Source of the DNA: Flavobacteriales bacterium
Lineage (GTDB): Bacteria; Bacteroidota; Bacteroidia; Flavobacteriales_D; Sanyastnellaceae
Direction: 5' to 3'
Assembly: GCA_947442505.1 (NCBI GenBank)
Contig: CANEVR010000020.1
Span: 1-38,377 of the forward strand
Length of the DNA: 38,377 nt
Shown one piece after another: positions 33,612 through 37,812 of this stretch. The notes under the pieces are model-generated. The model did no database searches. It was not told the DNA's origin and saw only the letters and a list, made by a program, of their open reading frames with translations. The translations under genes were made by a program, and so were the position numbers. How positions within the stretch are numbered: the stretch's first letter is position 1; each line of letters opens with the position of its first letter.

Positions 33612-34490
33612 ATGACCAACAGGGTTTACATCATCTTGATTTCCGTATTGTCAGTTCTATCTCTCTTCTTGGGCTATATGCTCTATTCAACAAAGAAGGA
33701 GTTAACGGAGAGAATTATTTACGTTGACAAAGCGAATGGAACCTTGATTGATGAGCGGGATGGTTTGCAAATGGAATTGGAGCAAATGCAGGGAACTTTT
33801 TCTGAGATGGAGACGGACAACAAGCAGATGCAAGACAGCATTCAATGGCAGACCAATCGAATTGCAAAATTGTTGGCCTCTGCACGCAACAAGGATTTTG
33901 ACATCAAGCAATTGCGTGACGAAACCGCTACATTGCGCCGTATCATGAAGGGATACATCCATGACATTGATTCACTGCAAAGGATGAATGATCGATTGAT
34001 TGTGGAGAAACAAAATGAGAGCGATCGTGCCAATCGTGCGGAGACACAATCCAAGCAGTTGGCCAATGAGCTGAGTACTACCCAGGATGTGGTTACAAAA
34101 GGTTCGGTGCTTTCAGCCGCAGGATTTAGCAACAAAGGAATCAAAGAAAAAACACGGGGAGGAGAAAAGGATGTAGAGCGCGCTTCCCAAGCATCACAGA
34201 TTAAATCATGCTTTACCATTCGTCAAAACAACATTGTAAAATCTGGAACCAAAAAGATTTACATGCGGGTGGAATCTCCCTCCGGACAGTTGATAGGAAG
34301 TGCGGGCAATGCCAATTTGGATGGCCAGAGCGTGGCTTACAGTGCCATGCGTGAAATAGATTATCAGAATCAGGATACCGATGTTTGTATGTATTGCATG
34401 GCTGCTGGATTGTCCAAGGGAACGTACAAAATCTCCATCTATGAAGGGGGCAAGAAAATCGGGCAATCGGATTTGGTTTTTTCAAGATAG
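33612..34490 (+). CDS. Membrane-anchored coiled-coil protein, unknown role
   Basis: 292 residues. A single membrane segment (about 6-25, VYIILISVLSVLSLFLGYML) is followed by a coiled coil (about 28-165), a short linker, and a C-terminal beta-rich domain of about 100 residues (about 195-292, IYMRVESPSGQLIGSAGN). The pattern is common in Bacteroidota hypothetical proteins. Likely inner-membrane with a periplasmic rod and head. It is separated from tatA by a promoter. Confidence 0.6.
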   Translation: MTNRVYIILISVLSVLSLFLGYMLYSTKKELTERIIYVDKANGTLIDERDGLQMELEQMQGTFSEMETDNKQMQDSIQWQTNRIAKLLASARNKDFDIKQLRDETATLRRIMKGYIHDIDSLQRMNDRLIVEKQNESDRANRAETQSKQLANELSTTQDVVTKGSVLSAAGFSNKGIKEKTRGGEKDVERASQASQIKSCFTIRQNNIVKSGTKKIYMRVESPSGQLIGSAGNANLDGQSVAYSAMREIDYQNQDTDVCMYCMAAGLSKGTYKISIYEGGKKIGQSDLVFSR

Positions 34491-34518
34491 AAGGGAAATA
34501 AACAAGAAGGGATTGCCC

Positions 34519-34526
34519 TATCTTTG
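34519..34526 (+). promoter_or_regulatory. -7 element of the tatA-gatA unit
   Basis: TATCTTTG matches TAnnTTTG, 28 bases before the tatA ATG. No TTTG at the -33 spacing. Confidence 0.5.
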
Positions 34527-34554
34527 CAAACAGTTAACGCGTAAACATTAAGAA

Positions 34555-34728
34555 ATGGGCAAATTAGGACCTACAGAGATTATTCTCATCATTGCAGTAT
34601 TGTTGTTGTTTTTTGGAGGTAAGAAAATTCCAGAATTGATGCGTGGTTTGGGTAAAGGTGTCAAGGAATTTAAAGACGCCAGTAAAGGCGAAGCTTCAGA
34701 GACCGACAACAAGCCAGAGAAATTGTAA
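34555..34728 (+). CDS. tatA: Twin-arginine translocase subunit TatA/TatE
   Basis: 57 residues. The N-terminal [16 protein letters not shown] membrane helix, [16 protein letters not shown] hinge and amphipathic helix (residues about 20-40) and a short acidic tail are the TatA signature. TatA oligomers form the passage for folded proteins with twin-arginine signals; TatC is not in the window. The TAA stop and the gatA ATG share a base (TAATG), so the two are translationally coupled. Confidence 0.92.
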
Positions 34729-36155
34729 TGACTCCCCGTTATTCCTCGCTTTCCGAAGTACAAAAAGACTTGGGCAATGGTGCCATTGCACTACCTGAGT
34801 TGGTTGCGTATTATTTGAAAAACATTGAGCAGACGCATCATTTGAATGCGTTTGTTGAAGTTTTTACTGATGAGGCCAAAGCACAAGCCGAGGTGGTGCA
34901 ACAGAAAATCAAAGACGGAACAGCAGGAAAGTTAGCGGGTGCAGTGATTGGTTTAAAAGACAACCTTTGCTACAAAGGTCATGTCGTAACCGCATCATCA
35001 AAAATTTTAGAAGGTTTTGAATCGTTATACACAGCAACAGCTGTGGAGCGATTGTTATCAGAGGATGCCATTATTATTGGCAGATTGAGCTGCGATGAAT
35101 TTGCCATGGGCTCTTCCAATGAAAAGTCGGTTTATGGTCCGGTTCTCAATCCCATCAATGAAAAACATGTTCCTGGCGGATCGTCAGGCGGATCAGCAGC
35201 AGCAGTAGCTGCGGATTTGTGTTTGATGGCATTGGGAAGTGACACAGGTGGAAGTATTCGACAACCAGCTTCCTACACAGGAACAGTAGGGTTAAAGCCA
35301 ACTTATGGTCGCATTTCCCGCCACGGATTAATTGCTTATGCCAGTAGTTTTGATCAAATTGGGCCCATCACGCACAACATCGAGGATGCTTTTTTGTACC
35401 TCTCCATTATGGCCGGGCCAGATCAATATGATGGAACTCTTTTTCATCAAGGATATGCATTGCAGCATCAGGACGCGAAACCTTTGCGCATTGCCGTTCT
35501 CAAAGATTGCGTGCACCGTGAAGGATTGAATAATGAGGTGAAATCGGCATTTTTAAATCTTACAGAAAAGTTAAAAAAGGAAGGTCATCACGTTGAGGAA
35601 GTTAATTTTCCCATTGTAGATCAACTGGTGCCTACTTATTACGTATTGACTACCGCTGAAGCATCGTCCAACTTGTCCCGATTTGACGGGATTCACTTTG
35701 GATACCGCTCCAAAGAAGCCAAGGGAATTGACAATACGTATAAAAAAAGCAGATCAGAGGGATTTGGAGAAGAGGTGAAAAGAAGAATAATGTTGGGGAC
35801 GTTTGTTTTGAGTTCGGGTTATTATGACGCTTACTATAGCAGAGCGCAAAAGGTAAGAAGAGTGATTCAGAACAAAACCAATGAAATTCTTGCACAATTT
35901 GATGTCATCATTACGCCCACCACGGCGGATGCAGCATTTGAAATGGGCAAGAAGTCAGCAGATCCCATTGCTATGTACTTGGAAGATATTTTTACAGTAC
36001 AAGCCAATTTATCAGGACACCCGGCCATTTCAATCCCTTTGGGAAAAAAACAAAATGGAATGCCCTTTGGGGTTCAAATTTTGTCTCGCGCTTTTGAGGA
36101 GAATCAGTTGTTATGCGCCGCGCAACAATTGAATGCTTGCCTCAAAGAATCTTAA
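34728..36155 (+). CDS. gatA: Asp-tRNA(Asn)/Glu-tRNA(Gln) amidotransferase subunit A
   Basis: 475 residues. The amidase-signature triad is complete: K77 (IGLKDN), S152 (GGSSGGSAAAV) and nucleophile S176 (SDTGGSIRQPAS). GatA releases ammonia from glutamine for GatB to amidate mischarged tRNA. gatB and gatC are elsewhere. It is coupled to tatA by TAATG. Its last codons contain the first copy of the ATTGAATGCTT repeat shared with the start of the next gene. Confidence 0.95.
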   Translation: MTPRYSSLSEVQKDLGNGAIALPELVAYYLKNIEQTHHLNAFVEVFTDEAKAQAEVVQQKIKDGTAGKLAGAVIGLKDNLCYKGHVVTASSKILEGFESLYTATAVERLLSEDAIIIGRLSCDEFAMGSSNEKSVYGPVLNPINEKHVPGGSSGGSAAAVAADLCLMALGSDTGGSIRQPASYTGTVGLKPTYGRISRHGLIAYASSFDQIGPITHNIEDAFLYLSIMAGPDQYDGTLFHQGYALQHQDAKPLRIAVLKDCVHREGLNNEVKSAFLNLTEKLKKEGHHVEEVNFPIVDQLVPTYYVLTTAEASSNLSRFDGIHFGYRSKEAKGIDNTYKKSRSEGFGEEVKRRIMLGTFVLSSGYYDAYYSRAQKVRRVIQNKTNEILAQFDVIITPTTADAAFEMGKKSADPIAMYLEDIFTVQANLSGHPAISIPLGKKQNGMPFGVQILSRAFEENQLLCAAQQLNACLKES

Positions 36156-36240
36156 TAAATCTGTTGACAAAAGCATTCAATCTTTTCTGAACCCCTCGAA
36201 AAGTGTTCGGAAATTGTGCCTTGTTTAGGATTGAATGCTT
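36128..36240 (+). promoter_or_regulatory. Triple-repeat RNA-switch candidate at the gatA/transglycosylase junction
   Basis: ATTGAATGCTT occurs at 36128-36138 (end of gatA) and 36230-36240, with its reverse complement at 36171-36181. The inverted copy can pair with either: copies 1 and 2 over 11 bp with a 32-nt loop, or copies 2 and 3 over 12 bp (36171-36182 with 36229-36240) with a 46-nt loop. The second pairing hides the ATG at 36235. This suggests alternative structures controlling the transglycosylase; it is a structural hypothesis only. Confidence 0.45.
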
Positions 36241-37812
36241 ACCGTAAAAAAAATATTTGTGAGACAGATTTTTCTATTTATCATTTTTGCTACCACCCTT
36301 GCTGCTTCAGCTCAACCAGGAAGCAATGCCTCTTTTTCTGTTCAAAAGGACAATCCTGAAGTGCAGTCCATTGATCAAGTTTTGGTGTCCAATTATTTGA
36401 ATCATTATTGTTACTCAACAGACTCTTTGTTGCTCAATCCTTTTGGGTATGATAAAAATCAATTGCCTTCTTTCACGGCAGAGATCATTGAAGAGCGAAT
36501 GAAAAACTTGGATGCAGACACACCATTTGATTTGGTTTATAATTCAACCGTTCAAGGATTTATTGATTTGTATGCAGTGCGCAGAAAGGACGTTACCAGT
36601 AAGGTGATGGGCATGGCGCAATTGTATTTCCCTATGATTGAGGAGAAATTGACCAAGTTCAATATTCCCATTGAGCTCAAGTATTTGGCCATCGTGGAAT
36701 CAGCCTTGAATCCAACGGCGATTTCACGCGTGGGTGCAGGCGGATTGTGGCAATTTATGCCTGGAACGGCCAAGCTATATGGTTTGGAAATTACCAGTTA
36801 TCAAGATGATCGCTTTGACCCATATAAGTCAACAGAGGCGGCATGTAAATATTTGAAGTTCTTGTACGATACATTTGACGATTGGCAATTGGCATTGGCG
36901 GCCTACAACAGTGGCCCAGGTAACGTCAACAAGGCCATCAGAAGATCCGGTGGAAAGAAAGATTTTTGGAGTATCAAGCCCTATTTGCCCAAGGAAACGC
37001 AAGGTTATGTTCCCGCATTTATCGCGGTGAATTACATCATGAACCACACGTCAGAGTACAATTTGTATCCCAAGAAACCACTGATTTCGTGCTATGAAGT
37101 GGACACGGTTCATGTAAAAAGCCGTTTGGATTTTGATGCCATGTCCAAGGTTTTGGGAATGAATGTGCAGGATGTTTCTTATTTGAACGGCACCTATAAG
37201 TTGAGGGAGATTCCGAACAATGGACAAAGACACTACATCACCCTTCCGGTGAGTAAAGTGGGATTGTTTATTGCCAACGAGGCTTTGATTTATGCGCAAA
37301 GTGCCATCGTTGAAAAACCCAAGGAGACGGTGATGGCCAATAACAGCGATGCCATAGGTGGAGCCAAGAAGGTTACGGAAAAAGTAGTTTGGGAAGATTC
37401 TTGGAAGAAGCACAAAGTCACCAAAGGACAAACATTGGCGGTGGTTGCTAAAAAATACAACGTCACAACGAGCCAAATAAAGCAGTGGAATGGTCTTAAA
37501 TCCAATAGCCTCAAGGCTGGTCAAGTATTGAAGATTAAAACAAGGGTAAAAAAGACCATCAGCATTACGGAAAGTGATCCGGTTGCTACAGCTCAAAAGG
37601 CAATGGGAGAAGAAACTGCTGCGTCTGATTCAACAGCCGTCAAGCCAGCGCCCAAACCAGCACCCAAGTCACAGGTTTATACAGTGAAAAAAGGAGACAC
37701 GCTCAATCTAATCGCGCGCAAATATGGAGTGACCATAGCCGAGATGAAGAAATGGAATCCAAAGCTGACCGACCGTCTCCAAGTAGGACAAAAAATAACG
37801 ATAAAAAAATAA
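36235..37812 (+). CDS. MltD-like lytic transglycosylase with two LysM domains
   Basis: 525 residues: signal peptide (to about residue 26, AASAQ), an N-terminal region, a family 1 transglycosylase (SLT) domain (about 125-290) with catalytic E155 in AIVESALNP and the motifs GAGGLWQFMPGTA and LALAAYNSGPGNV, then LysM units at about 396-440 (HKVTKGQTLAVVAKKY) and 480-525 (YTVKKGDTLNLIARKY). It cleaves peptidoglycan glycan strands in the periplasm. The ATG lies inside the third repeat copy described above; no good -7 element fits this start. Confidence 0.9.
   Translation: MLTVKKIFVRQIFLFIIFATTLAASAQPGSNASFSVQKDNPEVQSIDQVLVSNYLNHYCYSTDSLLLNPFGYDKNQLPSFTAEIIEERMKNLDADTPFDLVYNSTVQGFIDLYAVRRKDVTSKVMGMAQLYFPMIEEKLTKFNIPIELKYLAIVESALNPTAISRVGAGGLWQFMPGTAKLYGLEITSYQDDRFDPYKSTEAACKYLKFLYDTFDDWQLALAAYNSGPGNVNKAIRRSGGKKDFWSIKPYLPKETQGYVPAFIAVNYIMNHTSEYNLYPKKPLISCYEVDTVHVKSRLDFDAMSKVLGMNVQDVSYLNGTYKLREIPNNGQRHYITLPVSKVGLFIANEALIYAQSAIVEKPKETVMANNSDAIGGAKKVTEKVVWEDSWKKHKVTKGQTLAVVAKKYNVTTSQIKQWNGLKSNSLKAGQVLKIKTRVKKTISITESDPVATAQKAMGEETAASDSTAVKPAPKPAPKSQVYTVKKGDTLNLIARKYGVTIAEMKKWNPKLTDRLQVGQKITIKK

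Follow-up and report, generated by a model that had tools for sequence, protein, structure and literature searches.

Three copies of one 11-mer and a lineage-limited hairpin predicted over a candidate mltD start codon at a flavobacterial gatA-mltD junction

What are three copies of one 11-mer doing at the junction between a tRNA amidotransferase gene and a gene for a peptidoglycan-cutting enzyme? The window, by which we mean the whole 38,377-nt stretch of DNA analysed here, carries the word near the end of gatA, in inverted form in the gap that follows, and again over the candidate start codon of an mltD-like gene. An earlier note proposed a switch in which the inverted copy pairs with one of its two partners at a time, pairing with the third copy buries the start codon, and ribosomes finishing gatA decide which hairpin forms. 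Overall, we find that the repeats are real, that the computed hairpin is real and limited to one lineage, and that a switch is possible and unproven. The genes and the copies are the following.

34555 to 34728, forward strand: tatA-like gene, 57 aa, recognised by eye from the sequence (below the 60-aa cut-off).
34728 to 36155, forward strand: gatA, Asp-tRNA(Asn)/Glu-tRNA(Gln) amidotransferase subunit A (TIGR00132, 565.1 bits, cut-off 481.1).
36128 to 36138, forward strand: copy 1 of ATTGAATGCTT, within gatA codons 467-471.
36171 to 36182, reverse strand: copy 2, inverted, 12 nt including a flanking C; 5' arm of the predicted start-masking hairpin.
36229 to 36240, forward strand: copy 3, 12 nt including a flanking G; covers ATG 36235 and is the 3' arm of the predicted hairpin.
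36235 to 37812, forward strand: mltD-like lytic transglycosylase with SLT and LysM domains (PF01464, PF01476), read from ATG 36235.

The best NCBIfam model for the mltD-like gene, PRK10783 MltD, scores 216.8 of 508 bits, which is below its cut-off. The tatA stop codon and the gatA ATG overlap by one base, and a scan finds no terminator-like site between gatA and mltD; given both observations, RNA from tatA-gatA is likely to read through into mltD. A hairpin of copies 1 and 2 followed by CTTTTCT was considered as a terminator after gatA and is too AT-rich to press. Two tRNAs are the only Rfam matches in the window at gathering score; the five matches near the junction all fall below that score, so that no known RNA family is identified there. 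A search for relatives of the junction on plasmids gave no match.

The repeats themselves are confirmed. ATTGAATGCTT matches exactly at 36128-36138 and 36230-36240 on the forward strand and at 36171-36181 on the reverse strand, all within 113 bp, and allowing up to one mismatch adds a single site in the window, at 33836. Copies 2 and 3 form a perfect 12-nt inverted repeat (36171-36182 and 36229-36240) with 46 nt separating the arms. The resemblance of copy 1 to its partners extends further at lower identity, as an 18-nt inverted repeat with copy 2 (83%) and a 22-nt direct repeat with copy 3 (82%). For a chance model we generated 150 second-order Markov sequences of window length and counted triples of one word within 113 bp. 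The mean per sequence is 0.99 for 8-mers and 0.067 for 9-mers, and no triple of a 10-mer or an 11-mer occurs in any of the 150. The real window holds one 11-mer triple, that of ATTGAATGCTT at the gatA-mltD junction, so the earlier view that such a triple is beyond chance expectation is borne out.

Six genomes of the same genus, including that of the window, have a readable gatA-mltD junction (G000, which is the window's, G001, G002, G003, G005 and G006); a seventh, G004, gives no junction match. All three copies are unchanged in four of the six (G000, G002, G003, G005) and absent in the other two. One could take the 11-mer to be the DNA binding site of a regulator, with three sites at this promoter region, and the preservation of two direct and one inverted exact copies in four species fits that idea. 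So does the abundance of the word outside the junction, with 26 copies in the six genomes against one for its reversal, used as a control (none in the window's genome); perhaps, though, ATTGAATGCTT is the commoner of the two through reading as common codons. The window's genome has eight exact copies, and the five away from the junction all lie within long open frames, so that no regulon is seen, and a dispersed repeat or regulon was set aside on the same count. Five is also about the number expected genome-wide when window shuffles are scaled up by rough arithmetic, and G001 and G006 carry five and seven copies, respectively, with none at the junction. We consider a binding site improbable.

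Computed folding gives the copies a clear structural consequence. The best fold of 36156-36262 pairs copy 2 with copy 3 (hairpin 2:3) at -23.8 kcal/mol, with a z-score of -3.4 and none of 200 shuffles as stable; it continues above the arms into one further feature.

36183 to 36214 (approximate bounds), forward strand: upper 9-bp stem and apical loop of hairpin 2:3, from folding.

The longer stretch 36100-36260 folds with a weaker z-score of -2.6, again with ATG 36235 buried by hairpin 2:3, and in G002 (z -2.9), G005 (z -3.8) and G003 (z -3.0) nearly the same stretch likewise folds best into this hairpin. For RNAs that start between 36000 and 36100 and end at or beyond 36280, the probability that ATG 36235 is unpaired is 0.001-0.003; for starts between 36110 and 36128 and the same ends it is 0.002-0.10. 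Among the 28 ATG-first frames scored in the window (from -80 to +45), this start is the most buried. That pairing with the third copy would bury the start codon is therefore upheld by the computed folding.

The inverted copy can indeed pair with only one partner at a time, the two hairpins being mutually exclusive by sequence, and hairpin 1:2 is a respectable structure by itself (36120-36190, -15.5 kcal/mol, z -2.9). What the folding does not give is a balance between them. Across 55 combinations of RNA start and end, 45 of which include copy 1, hairpin 1:2 leads in 10 of the 45, all with ends at 36245 or 36262, and it is only in contexts ending by 36262 that the two forms can be close in stability. 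With ends at or beyond 36280, hairpin 2:3 leads in every context folded, and forcing hairpin 1:2 within 36080-36300 costs about 8 kcal/mol. The exclusive pairings of the proposed alternative-hairpin switch thus stand, and its balance is not supported: as modelled, the competition is real on paper, yet it does not look like a balanced switch. When copy 1 or the gatA stop region is blocked, as it would be by a ribosome, hairpin 2:3 still forms, so that gatA translation would favour masking and thereby repress mltD, not help it.

How well is the hairpin kept among relatives? At the site homologous to copy 1, five of 11 letters match in G001 and four in G006; at that of copy 3 the counts are six and three. 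For copy 2, G006 matches at five letters, and G001 at 10 of 11 with one inserted base whose gap column is uncounted. In G001 and G006, the z-scores of the leaders (-0.88 and 0.04) show no notable gain in stability over shuffles. Within the four species that have the copies, none of the 33 arm positions varies, and the five variable sites of 36156-36234 (36188, 36193, 36194, 36196 and 36197) all fall in the upper stem or loop, a distribution that fits an RNA stem and equally a DNA element. The change in G003 at 36188 disrupts a predicted pair. We see no compensatory change in the stem across the six same-genus junctions, the arms being invariant in four and missing in two, and the covariation that would have spoken for the pairing is therefore absent. 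Conservation of the pairing in relatives, whose lack would by the earlier note refute the switch, holds in four of the six, with unvaried arms, and fails in two.

The arms are held above neutral expectation, since pairwise divergence at 4-fold sites inside the four-species clade is 24-41% and only 88 of 180 gatA 4-fold sites are invariant in all four. As proof of function this is weakened by the surroundings: the junction has 74 of 79 columns invariant and other noncoding stretches nearby have 149 of 161 (27/29, 61/68 and 61/64 pooled), so that the junction is not conserved beyond the level of neighbouring noncoding DNA. The final 11 codons of gatA, which run over copy 1, are invariant in the four species; three further runs of 10 invariant codons occur in gatA, which makes the run over copy 1 nothing special, and of the four 4-fold sites counted in the last 18 codons two are invariant. 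These too weaken the argument from arm conservation. Since they are present only in four closely related species, the triple copies look like a young local add-on and not like a proven genetic switch.

Two other conserved stretches were met in the same four species. The 4-fold sites of tatA are unusually conserved (18 of 21 invariant, against the 88 of 180 in gatA), and the noncoding gap before tatA holds a 61-nt invariant run, 34492-34552, about as long as the runs of the gatA-mltD junction (65 and 56).

A three-way switch, in which copy 2 pairs with copy 1 and leaves the ATG open or with copy 3 and closes it, with gatA ribosomes deciding, has in its favour the mutually exclusive pairings, the stability of hairpin 1:2 alone, the near-balance with ends at 36245 or 36262 and the unvarying last codons of gatA. 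It is nevertheless unlikely, given the lead of hairpin 2:3 in longer RNAs, the other invariant codon runs, the absence of the copies in G001 and G006, and its sign, with gatA translation expected to repress mltD. The design recalls ermC-type translational attenuators and the trp attenuator, where several segments have alternative pairings and the first lies under a translating ribosome. Here, by contrast, the part of the "leader" would fall to the end of gatA, which encodes a full enzyme, with stalling not indicated, and hairpin 2:3 is the computed ground state and not one side of a balanced choice; nor do relatives show the compensatory pairing expected of an attenuator, with four invariant and two lacking the arms. 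Translational coupling, in which the second gene is promoted (PMC12548453), shares with this junction two genes on the same strand that little DNA separates, with structure at the start of the second; it differs in that a gatA ribosome here would favour the masked form. Turning that sign to use, one could picture the last codons of gatA, a housekeeping gene for translation quality, as the sensing arm of a three-segment RNA switch that template switching created in a single flavobacterial lineage, active gatA translation leaving the hydrolase start masked. We give this little credence; if it were true, wall cutting would respond to the state of translation.

Whether the hairpin matters depends on which codon starts mltD. 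ATG 36235 is a candidate start and not a certain one, and there is an alternative just downstream.

36259 to 36261, forward strand: alternative start GTG (GTG AGA), aligned with GTG AGA in G001 and ATG AGA in G006.

A start codon precedes the AGA at the 36259 position in six of six same-genus junctions, and ATG 36235 is present in four of six. G001 has no in-frame ATG available and would start at TTG or at the GTG AGA aligned with 36259, and G006 has ATG ATG AGA at that position. Many MltD N-termini in the family are short, with MKK or similar and then a hydrophobic stretch, which suits a start at 36259. Judging from these alignments, GTG 36259 may be the true mltD start, and we lean to it as the ancestral one; either codon may be used in the four-species clade. 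GTG 36259 falls outside hairpin 2:3, and were mltD to start there, the masked codon would be the wrong one. If a helix does cover the codon in use, that should count: Flavobacterium johnsoniae is reported to do without Shine-Dalgarno sequences, and structure around its start codons is linked to lower initiation (PMC6847099).

The start codon evidence feeds a reading in which the copies have no regulatory role. An older copy 2 would have been copied to both sides by short inverted template switches in the ancestor of the four species, mltD would start at GTG 36259, and the hairpin would matter little. Compared with copy 2, the other two copies are both in inverted orientation, and it is for copy 2 alone that G001 has a near match; the codon before AGA is the one common to all six junctions; and the junction is no more conserved than noncoding DNA around it. 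Mutation patterns consistent with template switching that creates RNA hairpins have been published (PMC8794818). Two observations pull the other way, namely that the arms are held against the neutral rate and that the masking of ATG 36235 is the extreme of the 28 frames. We regard such a relic as a serious contender, if one that we would not bet on outright.

Beyond the copies, the junction contains a second pattern, absent from the earlier note, that is more solid than the hairpin.

36162 to 36170, forward strand: block A (TGTTGACAA) of an element of two blocks that several genera in the family share.
36206 to 36217, forward strand: block B (TTCGGAAATTGT) of the two-block element, holding the candidate -7 region GAAATTGT.
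36223 to 36230, forward strand: GTTTAGGA, identical in six of six same-genus junctions.

All six same-genus junctions have TGTTRACAA shortly behind the stop codon of gatA, and also TTCGGAAnTTGT with GTTTAGGA after it; the latter pattern occurs once per genome in all four genomes searched, each time at this junction. For the family we collected 29 mltD loci: of 114 family genomes, 28 have an mltD match with E of at most 1e-150, and to their loci we added that of G005. Leaving out L078 and L087, which have too little upstream sequence, gives 27 loci for the shuffle and masking tests, and dropping a further three (L021 and L086, with poor element scores, and the near-duplicate L082) gives the 24 rows of alignment A2. 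In these rows the element reads TGTTnAnAA, then 38-40 nt, then [CG]AAnTTG (within 36155-36221 in the window), with the last G replaced by A in three of the 24; its distance to the start codon ranges from 16 to 108 nt. It is found in genera both with and without gatA preceding mltD. At 23 of the 27 loci, at most two of 100 shuffles reach the score of the element, and at L016, L021, L079 and L086 the score is indistinguishable from shuffles; all 11 invariant columns of A2 fall inside the two blocks. Both results are partly circular, because the consensus was read from, and the rows placed by, the same sequences. Consensus RNA pairing was sought as well and yielded no pairs in the 24 rows of the alignment, which ends before copy 3, so a consensus RNA structure was set aside and we treat the element as acting at the level of DNA.

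A model of the element, R1, was run on eight genomes, with 150 candidates scored in each. Its best site is at mltD in all eight, a result that holds by construction since all eight genomes supplied training rows. The best second sites have E 0.0017 (20.2 bits, G025) and E 0.03 (G000), and that of G025 approaches the weakest true mltD site, at 22.8 bits in G016; in no genome does a second site among the 150 candidates score close to the mltD site of the same genome. From its recurrence upstream of mltD we infer that the two-block pattern is a regulatory DNA element tied to this gene, and perhaps its promoter.

In one genus of the family (g20; L019 and L080-L085), block B lies within the inverted repeat TTTCGGAAATTGTATCCGAAA at seven of seven loci, and block A continues into the palindrome CACAATTGTG at six of the seven, with GACAATTGTG in L080. 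These symmetries could be those of a dimer binding site.

Could block B be the promoter? The flavobacterial sigma-A pattern that we tested is TTG and TAnnTTTG with 16-24 nt spacing, upstream of the start. No exact -7 box is found in any of the six same-genus junctions, which leaves them without a recognisable sigma-A promoter. Boxes with five of six letters and a TTG at 16-24 nt occur in the window's junction at 36156, 36252 and 36254, the last two too close to GTG 36259 to serve that start. The first, TAAATCTG, is a weak rival to block B (five of six letters, TTG at 16 and 24 nt) and lies upstream of copy 2; RNA started from it would carry copy 2 and hence be masked. Block B resembles instead the flavobacterial SM5 box, described as TAnnTTGY at -12 to -5 (PMC9723704). 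Its GAAATTGT or GAACTTGT is a weak match of five of six letters, present in six of six junctions; the window reaches this level 1.1 times per 100 nt, and in none of the six does a TTG stand 16-24 nt upstream of it. The conserved block at 36206-36217 makes it plausible that transcription starts downstream of 36171, the second finding by which, according to the earlier note, the switch would be refuted.

Next to the older element, the masking looks young. We took the first in-frame ATG as the start in the family loci, except in L043, set by hand to GTG, and called a start masked when its probability of being unpaired was below 0.05; for L021 and L074 this choice seems to place the start too far upstream. 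Four of the 27 loci have a masked start, exactly those of the clade G000, G002, G003 and G005. In these four, the longest upstream stretch complementary to the start region measures 14 nt; in the other 23 it measures 5-10 nt, and two of 281 shuffles have a complement of at least 12 nt. One locus, L045 (CAMCTV010000084.1), is titled Chryseobacterium gleum and has an mltD 97% identical to that of the window; the next closest matches are Flavobacteriales bacterium MAGs, and the label looks doubtful.

These pieces suggest a function for the hairpin that does not involve a switch. At a junction with an older, mltD-tied element, one subclade bears three copies of the 11-mer around blocks A and B, and block B sits between copy 2 and copy 3. 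If block B belongs to a promoter of mltD's own, with a start near 36222, RNA from it would lack copy 2 and its ATG would be free. Any RNA beginning upstream of 36171, such as read-through from tatA-gatA, would carry copy 2, which by computed folding pairs with copy 3 and buries ATG 36235. The hairpin would then be a shield, through which a peptidoglycan-cutting enzyme is not made from a housekeeping transcript. Copy 1 would be a weak competitor in hairpin formation, or a by-product of template switching; copy 2 may have been the template from which such events made the other two copies, both of them inverted relative to that older copy. That a lineage-specific hairpin stops translation of read-through RNA at ATG 36235 in this way is our first choice, held tentatively; the template-switch relic is a close rival, with the shield slightly ahead.

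Hairpins against read-through have precedents. In the transposase genes of IS10 and IS50, a stem-loop hides the ribosome binding site from read-through transcripts. A stem-loop hiding the ribosome binding site is likewise described for IS200 (PMC3196728). The likeness is in a stem-loop at the start; the difference is that no sign of a mobile element was met at the gatA-mltD junction. Nearer still is gene e of phage T4, the lysozyme gene, for which a roughly 100-fold masking of long early transcripts is reported, with no masking of those that begin at late promoters near the start (PMC3014915). In both cases the gene encodes a peptidoglycan-cutting enzyme, and the long RNA would bear a helix that covers its start codon, with the 5' arm upstream of the proximal promoter or promoters (a candidate here) and the 3' arm over the start. 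That paper documents promoters, structure and effect for T4, whereas the case made here is one of computed folding and conservation; a further difference is the third copy inside the upstream gene, gatA. Sequestration of the T4 type is found in the computed folding for ATG 36235, and falls away if the start is GTG 36259.

The two-block element is directly testable and is the part most worth following. Should both it and the shield fail, the junction would still illustrate that three repeats as conspicuous as these can come about locally and form no switch. A working shield would give the T4 lysozyme hairpin a counterpart in cells, one that guards a cell against making its own wall hydrolase at the wrong time, and would offer a regulatory hairpin datable within one genus.
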